A stretch of 49,820 nucleotides of DNA from Oscillospiraceae bacterium. Its GTDB lineage: Bacteria; Bacillota; Clostridia; Oscillospirales; Oscillospiraceae. This document shows, piece by piece, positions 5,981 through 23,087 of the stretch. Both the position numbers and the translations under genes were made by a program. The notes beneath the pieces were generated by a model, which was given only the letters and a program-made list of their open reading frames with translations, did no database searches and was not told the DNA's origin. The first letter of the stretch is position 1, and each line of letters begins with the position of its first letter. The stretch covers positions 1 to 49,820 of the forward strand of contig JAFZQE010000083.1 of the NCBI GenBank assembly GCA_017552325.1, in the 5' to 3' direction.

Positions 5981-6017
5981 GAAAAAGGAGAGCAGCCCGA
6001 GGCCGGAACTGCTCTCC
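5981..6017 (-). terminator. Terminator of the 14-gene catabolic operon
   Basis: Minus strand stem GGAGAGCAG (5987-5995) with CTGCTCTCC (6009-6017), followed on that strand by TTTTT (5982-5986). It ends transcription after the PyrD-like gene and lies back-to-back with the citXG terminator. Confidence 0.85.
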
Positions 6018-6043: not shown

Positions 6044-6964
6044 TTATTGACGGTGCGCGAGGCCGACGATCTCACGCGCCGCAGCGTAGCCTTTTTCCGC
6101 CAGGTAGCTCTCGATCCCCGCAATGATCTCCGGCATGACGTTCGGATTTGAAAAATTGCGGGACCCGACCTGAACGGCGCTGGCGCCGGCAAGCATATAC
6201 TCCACCGCATCCTGCCAGGAGCAGATGCCGCCGCAGGCGATAATGGGGATCTTCACCTGCTGAAACGCGCTCCAGACGAGGAACAGGTTGGCGGCCTTGA
6301 CCGCGGGGCCGGACAGCCCGCCGAAGCTGCTGCCCAGCACGGGTTTCTGACGGTCTATGTCGATCTTCATCGCGCGGAAGGTATTCGACAGCGTCAGCGC
6401 GTCCGCGCCCGCCTCTTCGGCGGCCCTGGCAAAGGGGACGATGTCCGGCACGCTCGGGTTGAGCTTGGCGATCAGCGGCAGGCGCGTGGCTTTCCGGCTT
6501 TCGCCCACGGTATAGCGCAGCGTCGCCAGATCCGAAGAGAAGGGCAGGCCGCTGTCGATATTGGGGCAGGCCAGATTCATCTCCACCGCGCTGATGCACG
6601 GGTCGTTGTCCAGCAGCTCGAGGCACTCGGCGTAGTGGCCCGGTCTGCTGCCGGAAATGCTCAGCACGACCGGTACGTTCAGCGCGGCAAAGCGCCCGAT
6701 CTCGCGCTCCATAAAGGCTTCCATCCCGACGGAGGGGATGCCGACGGCGTTGATCATGCCGCCGTACACTTCGACGACACGCGGCGGCGGATTGCCCGGC
6801 CGCGGATGGCGATGGACGCTCTTAATCATGATCGCGCCCAGGCTCTCCATCGGGAAGAGACCGGCGTTGTTTTCAAAATAATCGTAAGTGCCGGCGGCAG
6901 GCATTACAGGGTTTTTCATGAACAGCGTGCCGATCCGGACCGACAGATCTCTTTCTGCGCTCAT
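6044..6964 (-). CDS. Dihydroorotate dehydrogenase B-like FMN oxidoreductase (catabolic paralogue)
   Basis: 306-residue TIM-barrel flavoprotein of the class 1B dihydroorotate dehydrogenase/dihydropyrimidine dehydrogenase fold. Landmarks: NPVMPAAGTYDY near the start, the active-site loop NLACPN with C133 as the class 1B base, KLNPSV (FMN/substrate lysine), TLSNT, GGLSGPAVK and the FMN-phosphate loop ACGGI...AGASAVQVGS. The chosen ATG (6964) overlaps the stop of the upstream PyrK-like gene as ATGA and has AAAGGA before it. No other pyrimidine-synthesis gene is nearby and the gene ends a carbon-catabolic operon, so I infer a degradative role, reducing or oxidising a ring C=C next to a carboxylate-bearing carbon. 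Orotate/dihydroorotate remains a possible substrate. Confidence 0.85.
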   Translation of the reverse strand: MSAERDLSVRIGTLFMKNPVMPAAGTYDYFENNAGLFPMESLGAIMIKSVHRHPRPGNPPPRVVEVYGGMINAVGIPSVGMEAFMEREIGRFAALNVPVVLSISGSRPGHYAECLELLDNDPCISAVEMNLACPNIDSGLPFSSDLATLRYTVGESRKATRLPLIAKLNPSVPDIVPFARAAEEAGADALTLSNTFRAMKIDIDRQKPVLGSSFGGLSGPAVKAANLFLVWSAFQQVKIPIIACGGICSWQDAVEYMLAGASAVQVGSRNFSNPNVMPEIIAGIESYLAEKGYAAAREIVGLAHRQ

Positions 6965-7728
6965 TCGACGATCCTTTCCAGCGGCAGAACAGGTCCCTCG
7001 CTGCAGACGCGGATATAGGACGAAACTCCGTCTTCGGAAACGGTCCGGCACACACAGCCCTTGCAGGCGCCGACGCCGCAGGCCATCCGCGCCTCGAGGG
7101 ACAGGTAGGCGGCGAAGCCGTACTGCTTCTGAAGCAGCCTGATATCCTTCGCCAGACGCATCGAGCCGCAGGAATACACGGCGTCAAAGTTCATGCGCAG
7201 GCAGTCTGCCGCGAGCTCCTGCGTGACCTTCTTCGTCGGATCGGAAGAAAAGACCGCCTTCGCGCCCAGCGACCCGTAAAAGTCCCAGTCCGGCAGCAGC
7301 GCCTCGCTTCTCGCCGAGAGATAGGCGCGGATCTCGCAGCCGCGCGCGGCATAGGCCTCCGCCAACGGCCGCAGCGGCGCCGCGCCGACGCCGCGCCCGA
7401 CAAGCGCTACGCATCCGGCGTGCTCCAGAACGGGAAAGCCGTTCCCAAGCGGGCCGTGGACCTGGATGTAATCTCCCGGCCTGCAGCGCGCCAGACGTTC
7501 CGTCCCGGCGCCTTTGACACGGATCACGAACCCGATTCTGCCCTTCTCTGGGTCGATCTGATTCAGACTGATCGGCCTGGGCAGATAGGGCTCCATTTCC
7601 TGCCAGGATCTCAGCATGGCAAACTGTCCCGGCTTTGCCTGCGCGGCAAACTCCGGTGCGTCGATCAGCAGCCGGACCAGGCCCTCGCCCAGCCTTTCAT
7701 TCTCGATCACCCTGCAGGAAGCGAACAT
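6961..7728 (-). CDS. PyrK-like FAD/[2Fe-2S] electron transfer subunit
   Basis: 255-residue ferredoxin-reductase-type subunit that passes electrons between NAD(H) and the FMN protein encoded next. It has an FAD domain (RPISLNQID, GPLGNGFPV), an NAD-binding part (VALVGRGVGAAPLRPLAEAY; canonical family has GGGxGxAP) and a C-terminal [2Fe-2S] cluster with CGVGACKGCVC and a fourth Cys ten or so residues later (RVCSEGPV). This is the exact PyrK arrangement. Translationally coupled to the PyrD-like gene by ATGA. Together they make an NAD-linked reductase, attractive in a fermenter as a ring reductase or as an electron sink. The GRG in place of GGG in the NAD loop is a small deviation. Confidence 0.85.
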   Translation of the reverse strand: MFASCRVIENERLGEGLVRLLIDAPEFAAQAKPGQFAMLRSWQEMEPYLPRPISLNQIDPEKGRIGFVIRVKGAGTERLARCRPGDYIQVHGPLGNGFPVLEHAGCVALVGRGVGAAPLRPLAEAYAARGCEIRAYLSARSEALLPDWDFYGSLGAKAVFSSDPTKKVTQELAADCLRMNFDAVYSCGSMRLAKDIRLLQKQYGFAAYLSLEARMACGVGACKGCVCRTVSEDGVSSYIRVCSEGPVLPLERIVE

Positions 7729-7743
7729 GACTTGGTTCCTTTC

Positions 7744-8013
7744 TTATGTCTTCTTTTTCTTGCGCCGCTCGTTTTTCAGCCGGTACAGCTCCTTGACCGT
7801 TTCCGGCAGTCCCTTTTTCAGGCTGATGATGCTGCAGTACAGCGCATAGCCGAAGAAAAGCAGCGCCAGGACGTAGATCTCCCGGAAGCGATATCCCTCC
7901 ACGTGGAGCAGACCGGCCGCGATCTTCCATCCGAACCAGACGACGAGCGCCGCGGAGGCGATCAGAAGCAGGACGCTGACAGGTTTGAGGTATTTGTGTT
8001 CATACGGTTTCAC
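7744..8013 (-). CDS. Small two-TM membrane protein in the catabolic operon
   Basis: 89 residues with a GTG start at 8013 preceded by GGAGAAAGCGC. Two hydrophobic segments (about residues 11-30 and 45-63) and a very basic tail (KNERRKKKKT) predict a helical hairpin with a cytoplasmic C-terminus. I do not recognise the family. It lies between citE and the PyrK-like gene with gaps of about 15-25 bp, so it is certainly co-transcribed. A role in anchoring the electron transfer pair or assisting a carrier is possible, but unproven. Confidence 0.7.
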   Translation of the reverse strand: MKPYEHKYLKPVSVLLLIASAALVVWFGWKIAAGLLHVEGYRFREIYVLALLFFGYALYCSIISLKKGLPETVKELYRLKNERRKKKKT

Positions 8014-8037
8014 GCGCTTTCTCCGTTTCCGCGCCCA

Positions 8038-8940
8038 TCAGAGCGCTCCGTCGTAGACGCCCGCCGCCCTGGCCATCGCCAGGGTCTTCCGGGCGCCGTC
8101 GTAGAAGGCGATGTCGATCATCTTGCCGTCGACCGTAAAGACGCCGATGCCCTGCGCCCGCTTCGTCTCGATCTCGCGGACCACTTTTTCGGCAAAGACG
8201 ATCTCTTTGGCGGTCGGCGTATAGATCTCATGCACCGGCGCGATCTGGCGGGGATTGATCAGCGACTTGCCGTCAAAGCCCATGATTTTGTCCATCTCGA
8301 CCTCTGCGCGGAAGCCGTCCATGTCGTCCAGATCGGTGTAGACCGTGTCGAAGCACTGGACGCCGGCCGCACGCGCCGTGATGACCATGAGCTGTCTCGC
8401 CCCGGCCAGCTCGATCCCGGTCTTGGAGATCTTCGTCTGCAGATCCTTCGTATAGTCGCCGCCGCTGAGGGCCACGCCGAACAGCCGCTCAGAGGATTCG
8501 CAGATCTCCAGCACGTTCAGCACGCCCCGCGCGGACTCGATCGCCGCCATCAGCAGCGTGCTGCCGATCTCGCGGCCGAACTCACGCTCGGCCTTTTCGA
8601 CCTCGCGCTCGACCGCGATCACATCGCCCGCGCTCTCGGTCTTGGCGATGCGGATCGAATCGCAGCCTCCGGCCACGCACACGCGGATATCCTCGCGCCA
8701 GTACGGGGTGTCGAGCCCGTTGATGCGAACGACGCGCTCCACGCCGCGATAGTCGATCTCGCGCAGCGCGTGGAACAGCGAATAGCGGGCGGCATCCTTC
8801 TGGTTCTCCGCGACCGCGTCCTCGAGATCCAGCATGATGGAATCGGGACGGTATACATAGGGGTCCTTGATGAGACTCGGTTTCTGCGCGTTCAGAAACA
8901 GCATCGAGCGTCTCAGTCTTTTTTTGTTGTCATTTTTCAT
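8038..8940 (-). CDS. citE: Citrate lyase beta subunit-like CitE (HpcH/HpaI fold)
   Basis: 300-residue lyase subunit that cleaves the acyl-ACP ester of a 3-hydroxy-3-carboxy acid, in classic citrate lyase citryl-ACP to acetyl-ACP and oxaloacetate. Conserved pieces: DSIMLDLEDAV, RINGLDTP, IRIAKTES, the metal-ligand region AAIESARG, GGDYTKD, and GFDGKSLINPRQI. Two normally conserved stretches differ: LFLNAQKP replaces the usual LFVPGNNP, and SGGDYT replaces G-A-E-D-Y. These could signal a substrate other than citrate, such as citramalate or a substituted malate. The ATG at 8940 overlaps citD by 11 bp with GGGAG before it. Secure as CitE family. Exact substrate open. Confidence 0.88.
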   Translation of the reverse strand: MKNDNKKRLRRSMLFLNAQKPSLIKDPYVYRPDSIMLDLEDAVAENQKDAARYSLFHALREIDYRGVERVVRINGLDTPYWREDIRVCVAGGCDSIRIAKTESAGDVIAVEREVEKAEREFGREIGSTLLMAAIESARGVLNVLEICESSERLFGVALSGGDYTKDLQTKISKTGIELAGARQLMVITARAAGVQCFDTVYTDLDDMDGFRAEVEMDKIMGFDGKSLINPRQIAPVHEIYTPTAKEIVFAEKVVREIETKRAQGIGVFTVDGKMIDIAFYDGARKTLAMARAAGVYDGAL

Positions 8941-9235
8941 CGGCCAGCTTCTCCCAGGGGATCTGATCGGTCTGTCCCGCCGACCGGTAAACCGCCGCTT
9001 CCACGCGCGCCCGGATCGTGCAGTCCAGAGCTCCCATATCCTTCACCGTTACTTTTGCGTCCGTCACGTCCAGGCGGCAAAGCGTATCGAGAATGACCGC
9101 CCTGATCTGTCTGCCGAACTGATGGATCACCTTGCTGTCCAGCTCCAGCTCCACGCCGCCGTTCCCCGGCTCGACAATGACCTGCGCATCGCAGGATTCC
9201 AGCGTGCCGGCTGCCGCGGGTTTCTCAATGATCAT
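8930..9235 (-). CDS. citD: Citrate lyase acyl carrier protein CitD
   Basis: 101-residue acyl carrier (gamma) subunit of the citrate lyase complex. AGTLESCD places Ser14 exactly where the phosphoribosyl-dephospho-CoA group is attached in known CitD. The C-terminal signature MGALDCTIRARVEAA is also present. It would be loaded by the CitXG fusion and acetylated by CitC, both encoded on the opposite strand at 3.5-5.9 kb. Start at 9235 has GGGAGGAAACGGCG before it. Overlaps citE. It confirms an acyl-carrier-dependent lyase. Confidence 0.93.
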   Translation of the reverse strand: MIIEKPAAAGTLESCDAQVIVEPGNGGVELELDSKVIHQFGRQIRAVILDTLCRLDVTDAKVTVKDMGALDCTIRARVEAAVYRSAGQTDQIPWEKLADEK

Positions 9236-9250
9236 CGCCGTTTCCTCCCG

Positions 9251-10366
9251 TTACAAGATATAAATATTGCCGTCCATGATCCTTCTGGCGGTCCGGACGA
9301 TCCCGGCCTTTTCCACGTTGCCGTCCTTCATGACCATTTTCACTTCCGTGACGCCGCTGGCATGGCCCAGGCGGACGCTGCCCTGCTTCCGGAGCGGAGC
9401 GGCCAGCTCTTCGGCCAGCGTTCCCTCCATGCAGGCGGCCGCAGCCGTTGCGATCGCATAGGTCATCGGATATGCCTTGTGCATGACGCCGAGCGATATC
9501 ATCCGGCAGCAGAGATCCGTCTCTTCCGCTTTCACCTGTCGGCCGTCCATGCTGACGTAGTCCTGCGGACGGGACAGGATGCCAATCTTCGGCGAGGCGG
9601 CAAAGGCCTCGCGCGCGTCCTCCCAGCGCTCCACCAGGCCGGCTTTCTGCGCCGCCATGCAGCGGATCCGCTCCAGGAGCTCCATCTTTTCCGCGTTTGC
9701 GTTCAGCTCGCCGAGCTCCGTGCCCTTCAGGCCAAGATCCCCGGCCCGGACGAAAACGGCCAGATTCGACACGTCGATGACCGTCACTTCGTATCTCCCG
9801 AAATCCGGGATATCGAAAAACTCTCTGCGCCTGCCGGTCGGAAAGACCCGGCCGGTGGCCGCGCCGCCCGGCTCGCGGAAAAACAGGTCGATCTCCGCGC
9901 CGGTCCCGGGAACGCCGTCGATGGACGTATCACCGTAGACCGCCGCCCGCCCGTTCTCCACGCGGACCAGCTCCTCGATGATCTTCTTCGTGTTTTCGTT
10001 ATACACCCTGACCGTTGTGATCGGCTCCGCCGCGCTGACCAGTCCCTCATCGATGGCGAATGGGCCGACGGCGGAGGAGATGTTGCCGCAGTTGAGGTTG
10101 TCCGAGACGTCGGCCCGGTCGACACCGACTTGGACGAAGTAATAGTCGACGTCGGCGCCCGGCCGCTCTGAAGGCGAGATGACGGCGATCTTGCTCGTGG
10201 AGGACACCGTGCCGCCCATGCCGTCGATCTGCTTGACGTCAGGGGTACCCATGGTTTTCAGAAAGATCTCCCGCCAGGCGCTTCTGTCCTCCGGAAGATC
10301 CTTCCGGTGAAAGATGACCGCCTTGCTCGTTCCGCCGCGCATGTAAACGCACGGGATCTTCTTCAT
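9251..10366 (-). CDS. PrpF-family isomerase (aconitate / 4-oxalomesaconate / methylitaconate type)
   Basis: 371-residue isomerase of the DAP-epimerase fold. Motifs MRGGTSKAVIFH (residues 9-20), QIDGMGGTVSSTSKIAVI and NCGNISSAVGPFAIDEG are the PrpF/Mii/GalD signatures. Members move protons next to a conjugated C=C in tricarboxylates: 2-methylaconitate cis/trans (PrpF), methylitaconate to dimethylmaleate (Mii of Eubacterium barkeri nicotinate fermentation), oxalomesaconate tautomers. Placed between citF and citD, and in the same operon as an aconitase-family hydratase, it most likely supplies the isomer that the hydratase needs, for example trans- to cis-aconitate. Its position inside citF-citD is unusual for citrate lyase operons. 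Confidence 0.87.
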   Translation of the reverse strand: MKKIPCVYMRGGTSKAVIFHRKDLPEDRSAWREIFLKTMGTPDVKQIDGMGGTVSSTSKIAVISPSERPGADVDYYFVQVGVDRADVSDNLNCGNISSAVGPFAIDEGLVSAAEPITTVRVYNENTKKIIEELVRVENGRAAVYGDTSIDGVPGTGAEIDLFFREPGGAATGRVFPTGRRREFFDIPDFGRYEVTVIDVSNLAVFVRAGDLGLKGTELGELNANAEKMELLERIRCMAAQKAGLVERWEDAREAFAASPKIGILSRPQDYVSMDGRQVKAEETDLCCRMISLGVMHKAYPMTYAIATAAAACMEGTLAEELAAPLRKQGSVRLGHASGVTEVKMVMKDGNVEKAGIVRTARRIMDGNIYIL

Positions 10367-10378
10367 GCCGCCGCCCCC

Positions 10379-11926
10379 CTATTCTTTGATCTTCCGGATC
10401 ACGTCCAGGATCGTGCCGTCGCGGTATTCGACCAGCGCGACAACCTCGTCCTCGAAGGGAATGGGATCCGGCCTGCCGGTAATGCCGTAGGCGATGTCGC
10501 GCAGCTCTTCGATCGTCATGATCGGCAGCCTGGAGTATTTATACGCCTCCAGCAGATCTGCGCGGCGGGGATTGATCGCGATGCCGTAATCCGTCACGAC
10601 GACGTCCACCGTCTCGCCCGGCGTCGTCACCGTGAGCACGCGGTCGCAGACCGTCGGGATGCGTCCGCGGATCAGCGGCGCGACGATGATGCTGCAGCGG
10701 GCTCCCGCGGCCGTATCGGGGTGGCCGCCGGGCGCGCCGCGTACGATGCCGTCCGACCCGGTGATCACATTGACGTTGAAATCGACGTCCACCTCCAGCG
10801 CGCCGAGAATGACGAAGTCGAGGCGGTTGACGTAGGCGCCCTTGTTCATCGGGTTGGCGTATTCGGAGGTAGAGATCTCCACATGGTTCGGATTCCTCTT
10901 GATATGTTCGATCGCGAAGGAATCAAAGACCTGCGCGTCCACGATCTTTTTGACCAGCCCGTCGTCCATCATGTCGCACATGGCCTTCATGATGCCGCCG
11001 ATCGCAAAGCCGATGCTGACGCCGCTCTCCTCCATCGGCCGGCGCAGCAACTTGGTCACGGCCAGCGCCGCGCCGCCGCCGCCCGTCTGGAAGGAGAAGC
11101 CGTCCCTGAAATACGGAGATTCCGTGATGATCCTGGCGCAGTAGTCCGCCATCATCAGCTCGCGCACGTCCTTGGTCTCGCGAATGACGTTGCTGACAAT
11201 CTTTTTCGGGTCGCCGATCTCGTCCACGACGCAGACATAGTCGACGTCCGTCATCGAAATACTGGCGGGAACATTTGGGAAAAGCACCAGGCAGTCCGTC
11301 AGGACGACCACCTTGTCGGCATAGCGGGCGTCCGCCATCGAATAGGACAGCACGCCGCAGTCGCTTTTTCCGCCGACGGGACGAGCGTTGCCGTATTCGT
11401 CGCAGGTTGGTGCGCCCACGAACGCGATGTCCAGATGGATGTCGCCCTCCTCAATCGCGCGCACCCGCCCTCCGTGGGAGCGGATCACCGCCGGCCGCTT
11501 CAGCTTCCCATACGAGATGGCCTCGCCGATCCGGCCGCGCACGCCCGAGGACTGGATGCTGCTGACCACGCCCTGCTCGATCAGCTCGTCGATGTAATCG
11601 TGCGCCGTTCCCATGGAGCTGGCGCAGATCGTTATATCCCGGACCCCCATGGCCGCGACCTCTTTCATGACCAGGTTGATCACATAGTCTCCGTCGCGGA
11701 AATGGTGATGGAAGCCGAAGTACATGCCGTCGTGCACGCCGCATTTTTCCAGCACGCTGCGAATACTGTCCACCACCTTGCTGTGCCCGTCGAGCCTCGC
11801 GGAGCGAACGGTCGGGGCAGCCTTCCGATAGGAGCTTTCGCAGCGGAAAGAGGGGCCCCGGTAGACTTCCTTTCCTGTTTTCCGCAGCCATTCGTCGGGG
11901 ATTTCTCTGCCAAGACTGTTTCTCAC
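10379..11926 (-). CDS. citF: Citrate lyase alpha subunit CitF (acyl-ACP transferase)
   Basis: 515-residue CoA-transferase-fold subunit that exchanges acetate on CitD for the incoming hydroxy acid. Strong family blocks: FHHHFRDGDYVINLVM, RSHGGRVRAIE, FVGAPTCDEYGNA, GGGGAALAVTKLL, GHPDTAAGARCSIIVAPLIRGRIP (read as adjacent short blocks) and DYGIAINPRR. The GTG at 11926 is preferred because AGGAG lies eight bases before it and overlaps the stop of the hydratase gene. An upstream ATG at 11971 would overlap that gene by 34 bp. One usual GASGGH is GAPGGH here. Operon partners: PrpF, CitD, CitE. Confidence 0.92.
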   Translation of the reverse strand: MRNSLGREIPDEWLRKTGKEVYRGPSFRCESSYRKAAPTVRSARLDGHSKVVDSIRSVLEKCGVHDGMYFGFHHHFRDGDYVINLVMKEVAAMGVRDITICASSMGTAHDYIDELIEQGVVSSIQSSGVRGRIGEAISYGKLKRPAVIRSHGGRVRAIEEGDIHLDIAFVGAPTCDEYGNARPVGGKSDCGVLSYSMADARYADKVVVLTDCLVLFPNVPASISMTDVDYVCVVDEIGDPKKIVSNVIRETKDVRELMMADYCARIITESPYFRDGFSFQTGGGGAALAVTKLLRRPMEESGVSIGFAIGGIMKAMCDMMDDGLVKKIVDAQVFDSFAIEHIKRNPNHVEISTSEYANPMNKGAYVNRLDFVILGALEVDVDFNVNVITGSDGIVRGAPGGHPDTAAGARCSIIVAPLIRGRIPTVCDRVLTVTTPGETVDVVVTDYGIAINPRRADLLEAYKYSRLPIMTIEELRDIAYGITGRPDPIPFEDEVVALVEYRDGTILDVIRKIKE

Positions 11927-11937
11927 AAACACCACTC

Positions 11938-14226
11938 CTATTCGCTCAATCTGTTGTAGTTGATCAGGCATCCCTTGGCGATTATCTCTCGCTCACGCTC
12001 CGTCAGCGTGTCCAGAGACAGCTCGATCTCCGTGAGACCGCCGTCGGAGAGGACGCAGGCCTTCACTTTTTCGGCCCCGGCAAGCAGCTGGCTGCGGATT
12101 TTCGGGATCCACAGGAAGGAGCCGACTTCAAACACCAGCTCTCCCTGATAGGTAAAGGGCAGCAGGCCCCAGTTGATCAGGTTGGAGCGATAACGCTTGG
12201 TCGCGTACTTCCGGCAGATATTGGCCCAGCCGCCGAGCACCTTCTGATTGGAGGCCGCATACTCGCGCGCGGAGCCGTCCCCGGGCGAATTGGCATACAG
12301 AAAGCTTCCGACGCAGGTATTTTCCGCGCTGCAGTCATAGCCGTTCCCGCGCAGCAGTCCCGCCGCTTTTTTCAGTTCCTCGTCCCGGAGGAAGGGATCT
12401 CCCCCGGCCGTGATCTCCTCCTGCCATGCGCGGATCGCTTTGCAGCGCCCCACATATTCCGGCACCTTGGCCGACAGGGTGTACTCGGCGATCTTCGAGA
12501 AGTTGGAGCGATACGACGAGCTCTCTCCGTTGGGGATCAGCTCGTCCGTCGTCGTCACCGGATCGGTGATCAGCGCCGCGCATTTGACCAGGAGATTCTC
12601 GTTGAGCGAGGGGATCTTCGGGATATCGCCGATACCCGGACCCTTGACGAGCCGGGTCGAGGGTTCGGCATGACCGAAGCAGTCCAGCAGGCGCTTGTCA
12701 TAGATGGAGCCGTTAAAGTGATACTTGTAGCTCCGCAGGTCGAGATCCAGCTCGGTCGCCGGAGTCAGAATGCCGCCGTTGATGCTCGTGGCGGCGATGC
12801 TCATCGCGTCCATCAGCGCCGCGGTCGCCATCTGCCCCTTGCCGGGCCGCGAGCCCTCGCGGTTGGAGTAGTTGCGCGTCGTATGCCGGATCGAGAAGCC
12901 TCCGTTGAAGGGCACGTCGCCGGCGCCGAAGCAGGGGCCGCAGAAGGCGCTGCGCAGAACGGCGCCGCTCTCCAGCAGGTCGGCGGCGATGCCGTGACGC
13001 ATCAGTTCATAATTGACCGGCTGGCTGGCCGGATAAATGTTCAGTGTATATCCCTGATTGCCGATGGACCTCCCGCGAAGGATATCCGCGGCATGGGCTA
13101 TGTTCTCAAACAGGCCGCCCGCGCAGCCGGCGATCACGCCCTGATCGGCGCGCACCTTGCCGTTGACGATCTTGGAGCGGAGATCGACCCTGATGCCGAA
13201 CTCCTTCATCTGCTCTGTGCAGGCGAACTCGGCGGCGTGCAGGATGTCGTCCGCGTTTTCGTTCAGCTCGCGGATGCTGTACGCGTTGCTCGGGTGGAAG
13301 GGCAGCGCAATCATCGGCTCAATCTCTCCGAGATCAAGCTCGATCAGGCTGTCGTAATAGGCAAGCCCGCCCGGATGCAGCTCCCGGAAGGCTTCCGGCC
13401 GTCCGTGAAGCGTCAGGTAGTCTCTGACTTTGTCGTCGGTCTCCCAGATGCTGAACATGGCCGAGGACTCCGTGGTCATCACGTCGATGCCGTTGCGGAA
13501 ATCCACGCTCAGCGAAGCGATGCCCGGGCCGCAGAATTCCAGCGTCTTGTTTTTGACAAAGCCGTTCTTGAAGACCTTGCCGATCAGATAGATGGAAACG
13601 TCCTGCGGGCCCACGCCCGGTTTGGGCGCGCCGATCAGATAAACGAGCACCGTCTCCGGCCGGGTGATATCGTAGCTTTTGCTCAGCAGCTGCTTGGCGA
13701 TCTCGCCGCCGCCCTCGCCGGTCGCCATCGTGCCCAGCGCGCCGTAGCGCGTGTGGCTGTCGGCGCCGAGGATCATACTCCCGCCGCCGGCAAAGCGCTC
13801 GCGCATGAACTGGTGCATGACCGCCTGGTGCGTCGGAAGAAAAATACCGCCGTACTTTCTGGCCGCGCCCATGGCGAACAGATGGTCGTCCTCGTTGCTT
13901 GTTCCGTCGTTATAGCAGAGCGCGTTGTGGCAGCTCGAGAGCACGAAGGGGATGGGAAATTCTTTGACGTTGCAGGCAATCGCCGTCTGCAGCACGCCGA
14001 TATAGGTCATATCCTGCGCGACGAGCGCATCGAACTTCAGGCTGAGCCGGTCCATGCTCTCCGAGTGATTGTGCGCCTGAAGGATGCGGAAGGAAATGGT
14101 CTCCCGATATGCGTTTTCGATTTCGGCTTCGGAAAAAGGCGATAGTTCAGCGGGTCTTTCCGCTTCTTGGGCTTCCACGATCCGGCGGCCGCCGATCAGG
14201 TACACGCCACTGTCTCTCATTTTCAT
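11938..14226 (-). CDS. Aconitase-superfamily hydratase (YbhJ-like)
   Basis: 762-residue single-chain hydratase resembling the uncharacterised YbhJ branch of the aconitase superfamily. Substrate motif ADSHTRYGALGT (155-166). The three [4Fe-4S] ligands are C368 (GCAGG) and C429/C432 (CGPCFG). The swivel domain lies at the C-terminus with GDGSAREYAA (650-659) and RSNLINWGLLP. The catalytic serine position (first S after G) is kept, while the neighbouring S and H of aconitase's SSREH are A and Y. Expected chemistry is reversible hydration of an unsaturated tri- or dicarboxylate, such as aconitate to citrate. Start ATG at 14226 (an ATG two codons on is equally possible). Immediately upstream of citF. 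Confidence 0.83.
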   Translation of the reverse strand: MKMRDSGVYLIGGRRIVEAQEAERPAELSPFSEAEIENAYRETISFRILQAHNHSESMDRLSLKFDALVAQDMTYIGVLQTAIACNVKEFPIPFVLSSCHNALCYNDGTSNEDDHLFAMGAARKYGGIFLPTHQAVMHQFMRERFAGGGSMILGADSHTRYGALGTMATGEGGGEIAKQLLSKSYDITRPETVLVYLIGAPKPGVGPQDVSIYLIGKVFKNGFVKNKTLEFCGPGIASLSVDFRNGIDVMTTESSAMFSIWETDDKVRDYLTLHGRPEAFRELHPGGLAYYDSLIELDLGEIEPMIALPFHPSNAYSIRELNENADDILHAAEFACTEQMKEFGIRVDLRSKIVNGKVRADQGVIAGCAGGLFENIAHAADILRGRSIGNQGYTLNIYPASQPVNYELMRHGIAADLLESGAVLRSAFCGPCFGAGDVPFNGGFSIRHTTRNYSNREGSRPGKGQMATAALMDAMSIAATSINGGILTPATELDLDLRSYKYHFNGSIYDKRLLDCFGHAEPSTRLVKGPGIGDIPKIPSLNENLLVKCAALITDPVTTTDELIPNGESSSYRSNFSKIAEYTLSAKVPEYVGRCKAIRAWQEEITAGGDPFLRDEELKKAAGLLRGNGYDCSAENTCVGSFLYANSPGDGSAREYAASNQKVLGGWANICRKYATKRYRSNLINWGLLPFTYQGELVFEVGSFLWIPKIRSQLLAGAEKVKACVLSDGGLTEIELSLDTLTEREREIIAKGCLINYNRLSE

Positions 14227-14275
14227 TTTCTTGGTTTATCCTCATCTTCTTCTCTTGTTCTCATGAATGAGCGAC

Positions 14276-14310
14276 GCTTTTGTGCGCAGAGCTTCTCTGC
14301 GCACAAAAGC
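14276..14310 (-). repeat. Perfect intercistronic hairpin
   Basis: A 16-bp perfect stem with a 3-nt loop (14276-14291 with 14295-14310, arms GCTTTTGTGCGCAGAG and its complement) lies between the amidase and hydratase genes. No T run follows on the minus strand, so it is more likely an RNA-processing or stability element within the operon than a full terminator. Confidence 0.75.
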
Positions 14311-14328
14311 GCTTGTTTTCGGTGCCTC

Positions 14329-15027
14329 TTACAGCGCCTTCATCTGTTCCAGAACCTCGGCCGTCGGGATCACGTCCGCGCACTTGCAGTTCATATCGAA
14401 CAGGTTGAGCTTATGGGTAATGTCGATCCGGTCATAGACTGCGTCCTCGGGCACGATCACGCGGAAGCCATAGGAGAAGGCGTCCACCGCCGTGGCGCGG
14501 ACACAGCCGCTCGTCGTGCAGCCGGTGACGATCACCGTGTCGCAGCCCAGTGTGATCAGCTGCGTCGCCAGATGCGTGCCGAAGAAGCCGCTGGGATAGC
14601 GCTTGGCGACGAAGATGTCCCCTTCCTGCGGTTTGACCTCGTCCACCACCTCAACGCCGCGGCTGCCGACGCGGTGGATGCTGCCGCTGGCAAGCCCCGG
14701 GACCTTGTCGGCCCAGCGGCCGGCGTCCTGCTTGTCGCGCCGCTCGATCATCACGTAGATGACCGGGAAGCCCTTTTCGCGCGCCAGATCCGTCAGCGCC
14801 TTGATATGCGGGATACATTTCCAGGCCCGTTCTCCGCAGCTTGTGCCGTAGCCGGAATGCAGCATGGATTCCATGATCGGCACGTTGTCGCCGACCGTCC
14901 GGTACTGCACGTCGATCAGCAGCACCGCCGGTCTTTTGCCCATGCCGACGCTGTGTCCGATAAAACCGGCCTGCTCATAAACCTTGATGTCCTCTTCCGA
15001 AATGATGTCGTCCCATACATGTGCCAT
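14329..15027 (-). CDS. Isochorismatase-fold amidohydrolase (N-carbamoylsarcosine / maleamate amidase type)
   Basis: 232-residue cysteine hydrolase. The catalytic triad is visible: D39 (LLIDVQ), K142 (AKRYPSGFFGT) and C175 in GCTTSGCVRATAVDA. That last block is characteristic of N-carbamoylsarcosine amidases and maleamate amidases, which release ammonia (with or without CO2) from a small carbamoyl or half-amide acid. ATG at 15027 is chosen because GGAGG stands eight bases upstream. Its immediate upstream neighbour is a cyclic amidohydrolase, so ring opening followed by amide hydrolysis is the natural reading: the product of one is the substrate of the other. Confidence 0.83.
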   Translation of the reverse strand: MAHVWDDIISEEDIKVYEQAGFIGHSVGMGKRPAVLLIDVQYRTVGDNVPIMESMLHSGYGTSCGERAWKCIPHIKALTDLAREKGFPVIYVMIERRDKQDAGRWADKVPGLASGSIHRVGSRGVEVVDEVKPQEGDIFVAKRYPSGFFGTHLATQLITLGCDTVIVTGCTTSGCVRATAVDAFSYGFRVIVPEDAVYDRIDITHKLNLFDMNCKCADVIPTAEVLEQMKAL

Positions 15028-15059
15028 GATCATAACCTCCTGCCAGTTTATCGAAGCAT

Positions 15060-16427
15060 TTATTCACCGAAGGACGCGGGGATGTATTCGCCGTAGTCCT
15101 CGATCCTCTTCAGTTCTCCGTTGAGCATGACGGTCTTGCCGCGCAACACCGTCCGTACCGGCGTAGCGTGCACCTTCATGCCCTCATAGACACAGAGATC
15201 TGCCAGCGAGCCGTTGTTTTTGGCCGTCAGCACCGATTCGCGGTTCATGTCGACCAGCGCGAAGTCGGCATCACTGCCGACGCGGATCGCTCCTTTCTTC
15301 GGATAGGCACCGAAGATTCTGGCGGGATTCTCCGAAATCAGCTCGACGATCTTCGTCAGAGGGATGTTCTTCCGGAAATAGCCATACTCCAGGACAAGCT
15401 GCAGCACGTTGCCGGTTCCGATGAAGCCGGGCAGACCGAGCCAGATGGAGCCGCGCTTCTGCTCATAGCCGCGCACGCAGTGGTCCGAGCCGATGGTCTG
15501 GATCTCACCGCTGCACACGCCCTCCCACAGCGCCTCGCAGTCTTCGCGGCTGCGGATGGGCGGGTTCACCTTCGCGTTGATGCCGGCCTCGCAGTCGGTG
15601 TCGAGGATCAGATAATGCGGGCAGGTCTCCACCAGGATCTCGATGCCGAGATCCATGCCGCGCAGCATACGGATCATCTTAAGGCCGGCCTTGGAGCTCA
15701 GGTGGACGATATAGATCTTGGGGCATCCGGCCTTGGCCGCGAGGAACACCGCGCGGAAGATGGACTCGGCCTCGGCCCAGCTCGGACGGGCCTCGTCCCA
15801 TGCGGCGAGGTCGTCTCTCCCCTGCTCCTTCAGCGCCGGGGACAGGGAGAAATAGATCTCCATGTTCTCGCAGTGGACGCAGGGGATCGCGCCGGCTTCG
15901 CCCAGCGTTTTGAAATAATTGTACAGGAGGCCGTCGTCCACCGCCTCCAGCTTCAGGCGGACGCTTTCGGCGCCGCGGCAGGTCATGAAGTACTTATAGG
16001 AAGCCACGCCCTTTTCGCTGACCAGCGCCGGGATCTCCTTGAGCTGTTTCTGATCGGCGATGCTGTAATGGAACAGATAGTCCACCATGCAGTTGGCGTC
16101 GCCGAGCGTTCTGTTGCCGGGATGCTGTTCCAGATAAGAGCCTCTCTGGAGCATATAGATCATCATGGTCGTCGTCCCGCCGAGGGCGGCGTTTTGGCTC
16201 TCATGATAAAATTCTTCTTTGGGCATGTTGGCAAAGCCAACGTGGGTATGCGGATCGACGACGCCGGGGAACACATGCAGACCGGAAGCGTCGATGACCT
16301 CGGCGCCCTCCAGCTCCTGCTCGCTGATCTCCGCAATCTTGCCGCCGTTGACGCCGATGCAGGCTTTTTCGATGACACGGTCCGGGCACACGACGGTGCC
16401 GTTTTTGATAACAAGTTCAAATGCCAT
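15060..16427 (-). CDS. Dihydropyrimidinase/hydantoinase/imidase-type cyclic amidohydrolase
   Basis: 455-residue binuclear metal amidohydrolase that opens a cyclic amide, ureide or imide. All metal ligands are seen: H60-x-H62 (DPHTHVGF), the carboxylated lysine K145 (VASYKYFM), H185 (VHCEN), H242 (IVHLSS) and D315 (GSDHC). The overall order is that of dihydropyrimidinases, hydantoinases and allantoinases, and the former two are known to open cyclic imides. ATG at 16427 has AGGAG nine bases upstream. The longer frame start at 16463 lacks this. The paired isochorismatase-fold amidase is encoded 32 bp downstream. True substrate unknown. Confidence 0.87.
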   Translation of the reverse strand: MAFELVIKNGTVVCPDRVIEKACIGVNGGKIAEISEQELEGAEVIDASGLHVFPGVVDPHTHVGFANMPKEEFYHESQNAALGGTTTMMIYMLQRGSYLEQHPGNRTLGDANCMVDYLFHYSIADQKQLKEIPALVSEKGVASYKYFMTCRGAESVRLKLEAVDDGLLYNYFKTLGEAGAIPCVHCENMEIYFSLSPALKEQGRDDLAAWDEARPSWAEAESIFRAVFLAAKAGCPKIYIVHLSSKAGLKMIRMLRGMDLGIEILVETCPHYLILDTDCEAGINAKVNPPIRSREDCEALWEGVCSGEIQTIGSDHCVRGYEQKRGSIWLGLPGFIGTGNVLQLVLEYGYFRKNIPLTKIVELISENPARIFGAYPKKGAIRVGSDADFALVDMNRESVLTAKNNGSLADLCVYEGMKVHATPVRTVLRGKTVMLNGELKRIEDYGEYIPASFGE

Positions 16428-16460
16428 TGTTTTTTCTCCTTTGTGCCATACGTGCTCTAC

Positions 16461-16491
16461 CACGTCGGTTGGAAAGGACCCAACCGACGTG
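16461..16491. repeat. Perfect intercistronic hairpin
   Basis: 12-bp perfect stem CACGTCGGTTGG (16461-16472) with CCAACCGACGTG (16480-16491), 7-nt loop, between the GntP carrier and the amidohydrolase. No T run on the coding strand. Probably a processing point separating carrier and enzyme messages. Confidence 0.7.
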
Positions 16492-16534
16492 ATAGACAGG
16501 TTTTTTGTTTACCGCCGCGCGGTCAGGGATACAC

Positions 16535-17965
16535 TCAGGCCAGGATGCCCGTGTAGTAGGCGATCAGCAGCAGGCCGAAGCAGACGAAGCCGGTGAAGAC
16601 ATTGACGAAGGTCATGTACTTGTAGCCCTGCTTGACGTCCAGGTTGGTGAACTGGGTCAGCACCCAGAAGCCGGAAGAGTTGGCGTGGTTGAAGGTCAGC
16701 GTGCCGGCGCCGATCGTCAGCGCGAGGACCAGCGGGGACAGGCCGAGGACGTCCATCATGCCGCCGAAGATGCCGACGGAGGTCATGGCGGCGGTCGTCA
16801 TGGAGCCGGTCGCGGCAAAGATGATGGCCGTGGCGACGAAGACGACGATGATGGGCGGGATGCCGGCGCCGGCGATCCACTCGCCGAGCTGGCCGATGGC
16901 GGGAGCAGTGTTCAGGATCTTGCCGAAGGCGCCGCCCATGGCGGTGACCATCAGGGGGATCATTGCGACGTCGCAGGTACGGGTGAGCCAGTTGTCGGTG
17001 ATGCAGCGGAAGAACTTCATCTCGCCGCCGTCATAATTCTTGGTGTTGCGGATGGCATTCTTGATCGTGGTCTCCTTGCGGCCGAGGGCAACAAGGATCG
17101 CGCAGACAGCGCCGCAGCAGAGGGAGAAGGTGCGGTCGCCGAACAGCTTGGTGACATTCAGCACCGGCGAATCGGCAGGCAGCGCGGCGTTGCAGATGGA
17201 GGAGACGGTCAGCAGGATGACCGGGACAAGGATCGGGGAGAGCGCCGCAAAGAAGTTGGGCAGGTTCTCGCCTTCGATCAGCAGCTCCTCGGGGCTGGCG
17301 TCGGCGGGAGCTTCTTCAATGCCGACCACGAAGTCCGGACGGGGCTCGATGAATTCCTTGGAGACCCACTTGTTCAGGACGAAGTAAGCGATGAAGAACG
17401 CGATGAAAGACAGGATCAGGCCCCAGCCGATCACGCCGCCGAGGCTGGCGCCGAGGGCGAGGGTAACGGCCAGAATGCCGGGCGTGGGAGGCACGATGCC
17501 GTGGGTCAGGAACTGACCGGTCACCAGCCAGGCAGCCATCGTGGACATCGAGGTCTTGGTGCGCTTGGCCAGAACGTTTGCGATCGGCGCGCAAAGGATC
17601 ATCGTGACGTCGCCGAACACGGGGATGGACATGATGTACGCGGTCAGAGCCACGGAGAGCTCCATCCGCTTGCCGCGGAACAGCTTGATAAAGCCGTTTG
17701 CGATGGCAATCACCGCGCCGGTGTCCTGCATGCCCATGGCAATGATACATCCAGCCAGGATGGGGATGCCTATGCTCGTGAGCGTGCCGCCAAAGCCGGC
17801 GCAGATCGTGCTCAGCGTGTTGTACAGGCCCTGATTGGTCGTGATACCAACCAGAATAGCGGTCAGGAACAAGCCCAGAACGGGGTGCATCTTGAACTTG
17901 ACCAGCAGGAGAACCAGCACAACGACAGCCAGCACCAGGATGATGAGTAAGCTAAGCGGTGTCAT
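16535..17965 (-). CDS. GntP-family carboxylate:H+ symporter
   Basis: 476-residue polytopic inner-membrane carrier of the gluconate permease (GntP) family, about 12 hydrophobic segments. Family blocks: HPVLGLFLTAILVG, GGTLTSIGIPILAGCIIAMGMQDTGA, PVFGDVTMILCAPIA, THGIVPPTPGILAVT and NHANSSGFWV near the end. GntP proteins import hydroxy- or sugar acids with protons, including gluconate, glycerate and, in some members, citrate-like acids. The ATG at 17965 follows AAAAGGAGAGGA. Its place in the operon makes it the probable entry route for the anionic substrate. Confidence 0.9.
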   Translation of the reverse strand: MTPLSLLIILVLAVVVLVLLLVKFKMHPVLGLFLTAILVGITTNQGLYNTLSTICAGFGGTLTSIGIPILAGCIIAMGMQDTGAVIAIANGFIKLFRGKRMELSVALTAYIMSIPVFGDVTMILCAPIANVLAKRTKTSMSTMAAWLVTGQFLTHGIVPPTPGILAVTLALGASLGGVIGWGLILSFIAFFIAYFVLNKWVSKEFIEPRPDFVVGIEEAPADASPEELLIEGENLPNFFAALSPILVPVILLTVSSICNAALPADSPVLNVTKLFGDRTFSLCCGAVCAILVALGRKETTIKNAIRNTKNYDGGEMKFFRCITDNWLTRTCDVAMIPLMVTAMGGAFGKILNTAPAIGQLGEWIAGAGIPPIIVVFVATAIIFAATGSMTTAAMTSVGIFGGMMDVLGLSPLVLALTIGAGTLTFNHANSSGFWVLTQFTNLDVKQGYKYMTFVNVFTGFVCFGLLLIAYYTGILA

Positions 17966-18027
17966 TTTTTCTATCCTCTCCTTTTGAAAAAAATATCATT
18001 GAATGGGTTTTCCCATTTCAATACGAC

Positions 18028-19302
18028 CTAAAGATGAAACGGAACGATATCTCCGTTTTCATCAAAGGGGATGTCCTCCGGCTCCGACAGGACCCGGATG
18101 TCCTTCCTCTGCCGGATTTCGGGCAGATAGGCGGTCGAAACGTACATCTCCTCCAGCAGCCCGGTGTTGATGATTCGGATCAGTTTGATCTCCTCCGTCT
18201 CGTACATTCCGATCGTTTCAAGAGCCGCTTCGATCGCTTTTCTGTCGTTTTCCATCACAGCGGGCTTTTTGCAGAACTCCGGCATTGAGGCCGCCAGACC
18301 GTTGACGATCACGCTGTCCCAGTTCGTGTTCTGCTCATACTTCCTGGAGATGAAATCGCACAGCCCCGGCATGCCCGGCGAGCCTGAGGAATGTTTCGTC
18401 AGCCCCAGCGCCACGATGCGCTTGATCTTCGGCGAGGCCGGCTCCGGGGAGATCAGCGGCTTGAGGATCCGGCCGACCACCTTGGTATCCATGCCGGTGC
18501 CGGAGACGTCCTTGCCCACCTCGTCGATCACCAGCACGTCCGCCTTCTCGAAGGGGAGATGCAGCGTAATCGCGTTGTATTCGGCCAGCAGCCGCGATTC
18601 TCCTTCCAGCAGGGCGTCGAAGGTCGACGTATCCAGCACGTCCAGATCGGCGATCTGGTTGCGGCAGTTTTCCACGACGCCGACGCCGAAAAGAACCTTG
18701 CCCGTCTCGACGATGCGGGAGGACACGTCGGAGAGCACGCGCGGGAAGCCCCAGCGCATGATCGCCTTGTGATAATAGGTCGCGCCGCGGAACTTGCCGA
18801 GGCCGATGGTTAGGATCTTAATGATCCCGCTCTCGAACGAATTAATGAAGTCCGTGTGCGTTTTGATACGGTTGCAGACCACGATGTGATCCGCCTCCAC
18901 GGCCAGCTTGTCCACCATGACGGACAGCCCCAGATCCCGGCTTTTCCCGATCTCCACTACGTCGATCTGCGAACGGATCGGCGCGCCGACGACATCCTCC
19001 GTCAGGCCGTAGTTCCGCAGGAACTGAGCCTGTCCCTCCGCCGTGGAAGCCCCGTGGCTGCCCATGGCCGGAATCAGAAATGGCTTGAGTCCCAGCGCCT
19101 TCAGCTCGGACACGACCGCCTTTACAACGCGCGGATAGTCCGGAATGCCGCGGCTCGTGCAGCCGACGGCCACCGTTTCGCCCGGCCTGACCTTGCCCGT
19201 TATGCCGAGCTCTTCGATTCGCCGATGGATTGTCTCTTCTACATCCGTCTTGACCGGAAGCTGAAAATCCTGCTGGATCCGGACGACTTTCGGAATGTTC
19301 AT
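18028..19302 (-). CDS. LarA/DUF2088-family protein (nickel-pincer racemase-like)
   Basis: 424-residue protein of the LarA/DUF2088 family, whose studied members are racemases or epimerases of 2-hydroxy acids using a nickel-pincer nucleotide. Visible: PVKTDVEETIHRRIEEL near the start, GSHGASTAEGQ, an NRIKTHTDF block and GIIKILTIGLGKFRGA...YYHKA, which hold candidate His/Lys ligand positions. No LarB, LarC or LarE is in the window, so cofactor supply would have to come from elsewhere. ATG at 19302 overlaps the MBL gene stop (ATGA). A role in inverting a hydroxy acid such as malate or citramalate fits the operon. Not provable here. Confidence 0.78.
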   Translation of the reverse strand: MNIPKVVRIQQDFQLPVKTDVEETIHRRIEELGITGKVRPGETVAVGCTSRGIPDYPRVVKAVVSELKALGLKPFLIPAMGSHGASTAEGQAQFLRNYGLTEDVVGAPIRSQIDVVEIGKSRDLGLSVMVDKLAVEADHIVVCNRIKTHTDFINSFESGIIKILTIGLGKFRGATYYHKAIMRWGFPRVLSDVSSRIVETGKVLFGVGVVENCRNQIADLDVLDTSTFDALLEGESRLLAEYNAITLHLPFEKADVLVIDEVGKDVSGTGMDTKVVGRILKPLISPEPASPKIKRIVALGLTKHSSGSPGMPGLCDFISRKYEQNTNWDSVIVNGLAASMPEFCKKPAVMENDRKAIEAALETIGMYETEEIKLIRIINTGLLEEMYVSTAYLPEIRQRKDIRVLSEPEDIPFDENGDIVPFHL

Positions 19303-20180
19303 TTTCTGTCGCCCCACGTGCCGCCCATTGCGAGCAGCTGGTCATAGATCCTGCTGACGCTGTTGCGCTGGAAGCCGTCCACCATTTCGTCGGGATAGCC
19401 GGTGTAGCGCTCGGTGTCGCAGTGGATAAGGTCCGGGAAGCGCAGCTCATCCTGGATCTTTTCCTTGCTGTCGCCCCGGTTCATGCGCGCGTTGATCTCG
19501 TTGACGTAGTCGAGGTACATCTGACGGTACTTCCTCGCGCCGTCCTTGTCGGTCACGTCGCCGTGGCCAGGGACGATGGTGTCCACGTCCAGTTCGTTGA
19601 GGATGAAGTCGATCGTATCGAACACGTCGGGCAGGCAGCACTCCTGGGAGGAGGGCAGGCCGCACTCGCAGACGTTGTCGCCGGAGAAGAGCACCTTTTC
19701 CTTCGGCAGATAGGCCATCAGGTTGTTGGGCGTATGGCCCTTCTTGTGGATGAGCTGGATCTCCGTGTCGCCCAGGAAGAGGGTCATGCGGTCCGTGACG
19801 GTGATGTCCGGGATGCGGTACTCGTAGTCGCCGTGGATCAGCGGCACACCCGTCGGATCGAAGTGCCCCAGCACATAGTCCATAAAGGGGCTGGTCGGGT
19901 GCCGGTCGAGCAGCGTGTCTCTCGTGCCCACGGTGGCGATCATCTCACCGCCGAAGAAATAGGCGCTGAGCGTATGGTCGATATGATGGTCGGAGATGAT
20001 CAGATATTTCGTCGGGCCGAGGGATTCGACGAACCGACGCCAGTTCATCGCGTCGGAGGCCTTGTGCGGCGAGTCAAACAGCACAACGCCCGCCGAGGTG
20101 ACGATGGCGGAATCGTTGGAACCCAGATTCTCGGTGATCGTGTAAATGTTGTCTCTGACCCGGATGATGTTCTGCGCCAT
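19299..20180 (-). CDS. Metallo-beta-lactamase-fold hydrolase with altered first metal ligand
   Basis: 293-residue MBL-fold hydrolase, probably cytoplasmic (no signal peptide). Residues 64-69 read DHHIDH, so the usual HxHxDH motif has Asp in place of its first His, while H66, D68 and H69 remain. Further ligands are in KKGHTPNN, FSGDN and VPGHGD. The substrate cannot be told: MBL enzymes open lactones, thioesters and phosphodiesters. In this operon a lactone or ester hydrolase for a ring-derived intermediate is plausible. Good AAAGGAGAG site before the ATG at 20180. Second gene of the LysR-controlled operon. Confidence 0.8.
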   Translation of the reverse strand: MAQNIIRVRDNIYTITENLGSNDSAIVTSAGVVLFDSPHKASDAMNWRRFVESLGPTKYLIISDHHIDHTLSAYFFGGEMIATVGTRDTLLDRHPTSPFMDYVLGHFDPTGVPLIHGDYEYRIPDITVTDRMTLFLGDTEIQLIHKKGHTPNNLMAYLPKEKVLFSGDNVCECGLPSSQECCLPDVFDTIDFILNELDVDTIVPGHGDVTDKDGARKYRQMYLDYVNEINARMNRGDSKEKIQDELRFPDLIHCDTERYTGYPDEMVDGFQRNSVSRIYDQLLAMGGTWGDRK

Positions 20181-20204
20181 GTTGCGTTCTCTCCTTTCCC
20201 GTTC

Positions 20205-20567
20205 TCAGAAGATGCGGCCGATAAAGCCGATCAGATTCTGTACGCGCCTCGGAGAGAAGATCTCGATAAACTCGCAGTCGCAGCCGTCGGACTCCAGCCA
20301 GTGGGCCATGCCCTTCGGGATGACGACGATGTCGCCCACCTTGGCGATTGTGTCGTCCTGGCCGTCCATGTGGATGTTGATCCTGCCCTTCTGGATCAGC
20401 ATCACCTGTTCTTCCTCCACATGAACATGGTTGGGGATCCGCATCGGGTGCTTGACCGAGATATAGTTGATGCCCATATTTTCGCCCACGACCGAACGTC
20501 TGAAATTGTTCGGCTGCACCTCGACCACCGGAAACTCTTCCCAGTTTCTCACATACAGATTTGCCAT
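20205..20567 (-). CDS. Small single-domain cupin
   Basis: 120-residue cupin with metal-binding motif 1 around HVHVEEEQV (H47, H49, E53) and motif 2 IPKGMAHW (H89). The ATG at 20567 is fixed by AGGAGG-type sequence immediately upstream. The longer frame to 20696 would run through the promoter. Such small cupins are isomerases, sensors or accessory proteins. In an anaerobe a dioxygenase role is unlikely. It is the first gene of the operon, so it could be a pathway isomerase/decarboxylase or a binding protein. No firm function. Confidence 0.8.
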   Translation of the reverse strand: MANLYVRNWEEFPVVEVQPNNFRRSVVGENMGINYISVKHPMRIPNHVHVEEEQVMLIQKGRINIHMDGQDDTIAKVGDIVVIPKGMAHWLESDGCDCEFIEIFSPRRVQNLIGFIGRIF

Positions 20568-20660: not shown

Positions 20661-20714
20661 TTGACTTTCTTCGAAATTATTGTATAATTGACTCAAATTA
20701 TAGTCAAATACTAT
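20661..20714. promoter_or_regulatory. Overlapping divergent promoters with LysR operator
   Basis: Plus strand: TTGACT (20661-20666), 16 bp, TATAAT (20683-20688), toward the LysR gene. Minus strand: TTGACT (complement of 20702-20707), 17 bp, TACAAT (complement of 20679-20684), toward the 14-gene operon. A perfect dyad ATAGT-N5-ACTAT (20700-20714), containing the LysR T-N11-A pattern, covers the minus -35 box. The two -10 boxes overlap, so firing one promoter must interfere with the other. This is the classic LysR autoregulated layout. Confidence 0.82.
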
Positions 20715-23069: not shown

Positions 23070-23087
23070 AGCCCGGCTTCAGAGGCT
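23061..23087 (+). repeat. Hairpin over the M20 stop codon
   Basis: Perfect 11-bp stem AGCCTCTGAAG (23061-23071) with its complement (23077-23087), 5-nt loop. The stop codon TGA of the M20 gene lies inside the left arm. No T run follows. Likely an intercistronic mRNA element. Confidence 0.65.

Follow-up and report, generated by a model that had tools for sequence, protein, structure and literature searches.

The anaerobic fermentation of nicotinate by Eubacterium barkeri combines hydrolysis of the ring by an amidohydrolase with a PrpF-family isomerase (Mii), an aconitase-family hydratase and a C-C lyase, and the degradation of isonicotinate and citrazinate, known from older biochemistry, is taken here to end in a tricarboxylate, as is predicted for the gene array described below. 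In Escherichia coli, ybhH and ybhJ are clustered with ybhI, which encodes a putative tricarboxylate transporter; the function of this cluster is unproven according to the available text of one source (PMC9068703). The present analysis concerns an array of 14 genes on the minus strand, positions 6044–20567, of a 49,820-nucleotide stretch from an Oscillospiraceae bacterium (assembly GCA_017552325.1, contig JAFZQE010000083.1; this whole stretch is termed the window), for which a role in the catabolism of a cyclic imide or lactam is proposed.

As in the E. barkeri route, a ring hydrolase, a Mii/PrpF-family isomerase, an aconitase-family hydratase and a C-C lyase are found together in the operon; unlike that route, it has the citrate lyase subunits CitDEF in place of dimethylmalate lyase, a hydrolase of the dihydropyrimidinase type and an extra amidase, and the molybdenum hydroxylase family MoCoBD_1 (PF02738) has no match in the two genomes searched, i.e. 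the source genome and that of a rabbit-gut relative, one of which is 75% complete and both of which are possibly incomplete. The same absence sets the operon apart from the isonicotinate/citrazinate route, and isonicotinate, whose derived acids an earlier note on this DNA had listed for growth tests, has been dropped as a source on that ground. With E. coli ybhHIJ it shares the pairing of a PrpF-family isomerase with a YbhJ-type hydratase in one cluster (YbhH and YbhJ show 37% and 50% identity to their window counterparts), the E. coli genes being without amidohydrolase, amidase or citrate lyase. With the citrate fermentation cluster citCDEFXG it shares a full set of lyase and maturation genes; it differs from that cluster in its transporter, which is of the GntP type, and in having prpF inserted among the lyase genes, all of them behind ring-opening genes. 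The open-licence literature, to which the search was mostly confined, subscription papers lying largely outside its scope, yielded no paper on isonicotinate or citrazinate degradation and no description of the operon's gene combination, in keeping with the earlier note, which could name no known operon with this set.

The reading favoured here, with a probability of roughly 0.5, is that of an accessory catabolic operon by which an anaerobic gut bacterium would break down a cyclic imide or lactam of anionic character, with an aconitate-type acid as the intermediate from which citrate and then acetate and oxaloacetate would be formed. The GntP-family permease (16535–17965; PF02447, 2e-74) would import the substrate, an anionic compound being likely; the cyclic amidohydrolase of the dihydropyrimidinase/hydantoinase superfamily (15060–16427) would open the ring; the isochorismatase-fold amidase (14329–15033) would free ammonia from the half-amide to give an aconitate-type unsaturated tricarboxylate; the PrpF/Mii-family isomerase (9251–10366) would shift or isomerise its double bond; the aconitase-family hydratase of the PRK11413/YbhJ type (11938–14226) would add water to yield citrate; and CitF (alpha subunit, 10379–11971), CitD (acyl carrier protein, 8930–9235) and CitE (beta subunit, 8038–8940), matured by CitC and CitXG, would cleave citrate to acetate and oxaloacetate. 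All of these genes except those for maturation are on the minus strand; the reactions, the substrate and the order in which PrpF and the hydratase act are predicted from protein families and gene context. If this is correct, gut anaerobes would be able to draw both food and nitrogen from cyclic imides or lactams by way of citrate lyase, the pathway family would be present in at least two phyla, with a substrate that could be found by direct assay, and a role would be suggested for the uncharacterised YbhH/YbhJ pair of E. coli.

The gene calls on which this rests confirm the 14 co-directional genes of the earlier note, coordinates included, with neighbouring genes overlapping by at most 34 bp or separated by at most about 107 bp. 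The family calls made there hold, though not all at the level of curated NCBIfam cut-offs: these are passed by CitF, CitD, the hydratase, the LarA-type isomerase (nickel-pincer nucleotide, NPN, group 22) and PyrD; CitE, PrpF, PyrK, the cyclic amidohydrolase, the isochorismatase-fold protein, GntP and the metallo-beta-lactamase (MBL)-fold protein match their superfamilies below them; and the cupin and the small membrane protein match no NCBIfam family.

The co-occurrence of amidohydrolase, isochorismatase and CitDEF families, proposed in the earlier note as a check, is seen in one further genome, in the same gene order, a recurrence that goes beyond chance. Six exact peptide patterns taken from one protein, the amidohydrolase, were used to scan 84,980 species genomes, so that more distant copies would escape; a single locus was returned besides the source genome, in a rabbit-gut Oscillospiraceae assembly. 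Ten genes from MBL to CitE follow there in the same order at 57–87% identity over two contigs: the first carries MBL (partial, 63%), LarA (75%), GntP (81%), amidohydrolase (73%), amidase (87%), hydratase (70%), CitF (79%) and the first half of PrpF (73%), and at the start of the other contig are the remainder of PrpF (57%), CitD (58%) and CitE (76%). The contig ends have 85 of 87 bases in common, after which about 44 unrelated bases close the first contig, so that the join is inferred, not demonstrated. The cupin is not visible in the rabbit contig, whose start falls inside the next gene, MBL. Since 59 relatives, 36 of them of the same genus, hold no hydrolase closer than 36% (matches at E 1e-60 or better), the operon is regarded as accessory. 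After the rabbit CitE there is a hairpin and then a dehydrogenase of the lactate/malate/ureidoglycolate (Ldh2) type, doubtful as a last operon gene in view of its distance of 215 bp and of the intervening hairpin.

The pairing of the two ring-opening enzymes recurs in Pseudomonadota. In tblastn searches of 72,556 plasmids with the amidase and the hydrolase as queries, five of the eight amidase matches inspected (of 12 listed) lie in hydrolase-amidase clusters, and of the ten hydrolase matches inspected (of 15 listed, the other five looking like near-copies by name) seven are accompanied by a close amidase, two by a distant one (28–30%) and one by none. Eight plasmid clusters hold both enzymes, the eighth, from Methylobacterium currus, having come from the amidase search, with hydrolase relatives of 35–41% and amidase relatives of 43–51% identity; the hosts are Shinella, Antarctobacter, Methylobacterium, Hydrogenophaga, Variovorax and Novosphingobium, and as two loci each are from Methylobacterium and Variovorax, about six clusters count as independent. 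Scored at E 1e-15 and from annotations, a PrpB/methylisocitrate-lyase-family protein is present in six of the eight, AcnA or MmgE/PrpD, as non-orthologous hydratases, in six, and both lyase and hydratase in four. Shinella has two AcnA, MmgE/PrpD and the lyase, Antarctobacter AcnA and the lyase, Methylobacterium nodulans and M. currus the lyase, two MmgE/PrpD and an FAD protein, Variovorax PBL-E5 and SRS16 two MmgE/PrpD, an FAD protein and a CobW-type GTPase with no lyase seen, Hydrogenophaga a CobW-type protein and PrpB, and Novosphingobium the lyase and a CobW-type protein. By NCBIfam, the hydratase of Shinella scores as AcnA and the lyase of Hydrogenophaga as PrpB, each over the respective cut-offs; three other cluster lyases are PrpB-like at lower scores, and for the FAD protein of Methylobacterium the placement goes no further than the superfamily.

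These clusters thus share with the operon its amidohydrolase and amidase families, mostly beside hydratase and/or C-C lyase genes, and differ from it in having AcnA or MmgE/PrpD with a PrpB-type lyase instead of YbhJ/PrpF with CitDEF, and ABC or TctC-type transporters. Both back ends, AcnA with a PrpB-type lyase and a hydratase with CitDEF, agree with an aconitate-type intermediate. The linear scheme of the earlier note is in this respect sustained by the plasmid clusters, together with the tricarboxylate loci discussed below, as to ring opening, amide removal, isomerisation or hydration and C-C cleavage, and not as to ring redox or the specific substrate. It can further be proposed, tentatively and at somewhat less than even odds, that unsaturated tricarboxylates in the form of cyclic imides or lactams are degraded across phyla by a hitherto undescribed pathway, in which one conserved hydrolase-amidase front end would be joined to interchangeable back ends: citrate lyase in gut anaerobes and, in Pseudomonadota of soil and sea, a methylisocitrate-type lyase together with aconitase or MmgE/PrpD.

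In a hydrolase tree of 18 rows, which omits one locus (L054) without a usable reading frame, nine cluster hydrolases and two from clusters of a dpsA type form one clade (98/99) that excludes AllB and HyuA of E. coli, two hydantoinases of the genus, a Rhizobium hydrolase and a second amidohydrolase of the window; a number of terminal branches are long, and the nine cluster hydrolases alone are not one clade. In the amidase tree (17 rows) neither operon copy is firmly placed, and nicotinate-like amidases are nested among those of the clusters. The dpsA-type clusters, in Aminobacter MSH1 and Shinella, combine a sister amidohydrolase with DpsA-like and 4-oxalocrotonate-tautomerase-like genes, a distant isochorismatase, RidA and CobW-type genes. 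Two Variovorax loci, nicotinate-like by annotation, have amidase relatives (46–47%) next to molybdenum hydroxylase-type genes and an FAD monooxygenase.

The two front-end enzymes carry the residues of their superfamilies and are, at the same time, where a different substrate class has to be weighed. In the amidohydrolase, best read from ATG 16427 (with AAAGGAG ahead of it) and not from GTG 16463, the motifs HxH, K, H, H and D stand at 58, 143, 184, 241 and 313, also in the alignment, and are taken to be the binuclear metal ligands of the dihydropyrimidinase/D-hydantoinase type; the equivalog score for that type is missed (TIGR02033, 297.6 versus 393.25 bits). The amidase (PF00857, 4e-31) has D41, K144 and C177, presumably the catalytic triad of N-carbamoylsarcosine and maleamate amidohydrolases; its best match in the Protein Data Bank (PDB) is N-carbamoylsarcosine amidohydrolase (4e-36), and chain 3ot4, which we take to be NicF, matches at 1e-26; the closest genomic contexts of amidase relatives are the plasmid clusters and nicotinate-like loci. 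A route for cyclic ureides, in which a hydantoinase and an N-carbamoyl hydrolase would give an amino or hydroxy acid while citrate lyase acted separately on imported tricarboxylates, would agree with the best PDB match of the amidase, with the dihydropyrimidinase/hydantoinase profile and PDB matches of the amidohydrolase, with two clostridial loci in which distant amidases (32–34%) are paired with hydantoinase-type genes, and with the hairpin that lies between the two halves of the operon. It is nevertheless judged unlikely: none of the operon enzymes would remove the amino group of an amino acid product, identity to the amidase is much lower for the hydantoin-linked amidases than for the plasmid-cluster ones (43–51%), and in other phyla hydrolase and amidase accompany aconitase and lyase genes.

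For the tail of the operon, a tricarboxylate module of hydratase, isomerase and citrate lyase is supported, by analogy, by three clostridial loci and by E. coli ybhHIJ. The hydratase scores 1064.5 bits against a cut-off of 641 (NF008503), CitF 692.6 against 501.45 (TIGR01584) and CitD, with a GTLES motif containing S14, 105.2 against 63.5 (TIGR01608); CitE has citE as its best family with 354.1 against 443.4 (TIGR01588; the rabbit copy is 76–77% identical). Directly downstream of the operon and convergent with it, overlooked in the earlier note, are citC, for the citrate lyase ligase (3527–4567, plus strand; PF08218, 2e-58; TIGR00124, 253.4 versus 262.1), and a citX-citG fusion for synthesis of the prosthetic group (4580–5917, plus strand; TIGR03124, 130.9 versus 105.25; TIGR03125, 246.7 versus 272.3); CitC, CitX and CitG all exceed their Pfam cut-offs, and the citrate lyase set is thereby complete. 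The rabbit genome has, in addition, a further group of citrate lyase genes beside a divergent LysR gene (L061, 1–2948), its CitF, CitE and CitD being 58, 67 and 66% identical to those of the window.

PrpF relatives occur in six of 291 Clostridia genomes, the source included (E 1e-40), and all seven non-source places were inspected. One (L046) has CitC, CitD, CitE, CitF, CitX and aconitase alongside, and another (L047) a YbhJ-type hydratase together with CitMHS, a citrate:proton symporter; three (L043–L045) have a large subunit of the aconitase family and, judged by eye, the small one, L043 with a nicotinate-type look judged by eye without a family call, and two (L041, L042) have neither. At a further locus (L048), CitDEF, a YbhJ-type hydratase and aconitase are found together.

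The window PrpF (PF04303, 7e-120, 400.8 bits versus 27) misses the equivalog scores of PrpF (288 versus 440.55 bits) and of oxalomesaconate tautomerase (316.9 versus 440), and its best PDB match is 3g7k, 3-methylitaconate isomerase (6e-95). Its K59 and C93 align with K73 and C107 of SoPrpF, which the accessible text of one report describes as needed for the isomerisation of trans- to cis-aconitate (PMC5690661). The structural match agrees with a C5 variant of the route, in which an alkyl or methyl maleimide would give a citraconate- or mesaconate-type acid, PrpF would be a methylitaconate isomerase, the hydratase would yield citramalate and CitDEF would act as a citramalate lyase to give acetate and pyruvate. 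Citramalate lyase has the CitDEF architecture, a point in favour of this variant; on the other side, CitF lies well over the citrate lyase cut-off, YbhJ-type and PrpF genes accompany citrate or tricarboxylate transporters, and CitDEF must release acetate, which excludes dialkylmaleates. The variant, for which maleimides from chlorophyll or heme breakdown would be a dietary source, is regarded as distinctly unlikely. Pyrrolic products of chlorophyll degradation are reported in plants and herbivores in the accessible part of one paper (PMC7318184), which would be in its favour.

It might also be that unlinked functions, i.e. scavenging of ureide or amide nitrogen and fermentation of citrate or aconitate, are placed on a common transcript. 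LarA, MBL, cupin and PyrKD are outside the linear route, and the YbhJ-type hydratase, which by a hand count has matches at E <1e-70 in 74 of the 291 Clostridia genomes, the source among them, is usually solitary, 28 of 29 loci outside the source genome having no cit gene within flanks of about 1.5 kb. The order from MBL to CitE is kept in two genomes, and the association of hydrolase, amidase, hydratase and lyase recurs with non-homologous parts, which makes such a coincidence improbable.

The cyclic imide or lactam pathway is itself opposed by several observations. CitE, PrpF, the amidohydrolase and the amidase are under their equivalog cut-offs, and the structure nearest to PrpF is 3-methylitaconate isomerase and not an aconitate enzyme; the amidase may act on a carbamoyl substrate, as N-carbamoylsarcosine amidohydrolase outranks 3ot4. 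With the cut-offs applied, neither CitDEF nor PrpF is seen in any plasmid cluster, two of the eight are without AcnA or MmgE/PrpD and two without the lyase in the stretch read, and three of the eight inspected amidase loci are outside such clusters, two being nicotinate-like and one of a CoA type. Finally, a hairpin in the gap between amidase and hydratase genes could separate the expression of the operon halves.

As to the compound itself, citrazinate is a guess. Opening of a six-membered imide, of which citrazinate is an example, leads to trans-aconitate, which would explain PrpF; a five-membered imide gives cis-aconitate and would better fit the spacing of the known maleamate and carbamoylsarcosine substrates.

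The last three genes of the array are an extension specific to the window, since the rabbit operon has none of them past CitE: a small membrane protein without family (7744–8013), a PyrK-like electron transfer subunit (6961–7728; PF10418, 6e-14; CGVGACKGC motif; 160.2 versus a cut-off of 314) and a PyrD-like flavoprotein of class 1B (6044–6964; NF005574, 324.9 versus 269). Because PyrK and PyrD are missing from an otherwise co-linear operon, and the single PyrD detected in the rabbit genome lies at another site (39% identity to that of the window), ring redox by this pair, one of the modules in the earlier note, has been rejected as a core step for want of support, and the pair is seen as a later or strain-specific addition. 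It may still matter in this strain: the operon PyrD is divergent, at 35–42% identity to the full-length PyrD matches of relatives, in which PyrK adjoins PyrD, and is the sole PyrD detected in the incomplete source genome.

The first three genes, cupin (20205–20567; Cupin_2, 8.6e-9), MBL-fold hydrolase (19299–20180; Lactamase_B, 1.3e-9) and LarA-type nickel-pincer isomerase (18028–19317, starting at GTG 19317 or ATG 19302; NF052515, 413 bits versus 400), are not assigned to any step of the route set out above, nor would one substrate explain the presence of all three. LarA enzymes require LarC for their nickel cofactor; the LarC family (PF01969) has no match in the source and rabbit genomes, though both operons carry the isomerase. 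In 30 group-22 LarA loci, with flanks of about 1.5 kb, no further gene of the window is represented, and the accessible portions of three LarA papers give no substrate for this group. NPN isomerase group 22 is present in 86 of 398 genomes of the phylum, the window copy being barely above the cut-off.

Of the single promoter claimed in the earlier note, a promoter-like site stands (20679–20707, minus strand; TTGACT-17-TACAAT, 10/12 matches), which includes an inverted repeat, TTGACT-N8-AGTCAA (20707–20688), and overlaps the promoter of a divergent LysR gene (20760–21686, plus strand; profile match, start read from the sequence), a candidate regulator of the operon. The site is weak evidence, since seven sites of this kind were returned by the scan, where shuffled sequence gave 3.8 on average (standard deviation 1.9). 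Moreover, the hairpin within the operon (14311–14275, minus strand; 18 bp; the whole gap folds at −35.6 kcal/mol, z −4.9 versus shuffles) means that one promoter and one transcript are not established. Between the same two genes the rabbit operon has a weaker hairpin of unrelated sequence (L056, about 5278–5305; z −1.8, a stability reached by 11 of 200 shuffles). A clear coding-strand U-tract is lacking in both hairpins, which together suggest that the halves of the operon may differ in expression level. A terminator-type hairpin followed by TTTTT was read by eye 3′ of PyrD (5982–6017, minus strand), the terminator scanner counting 11 against a shuffle mean of 11.5, i.e. no excess. Rfam and tRNA scans gave no matches, and transfer is not signalled by base composition, the GC content of 0.609 in the operon versus 0.622 in the window not being distinctive. 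Adjoining the LysR gene on the plus strand (21738–24513) are genes for an M20 amidohydrolase and then another cyclic amidohydrolase (356.1 bits for allantoinase AllB, the cut-off being 357.85), which may share the regulon of the operon.

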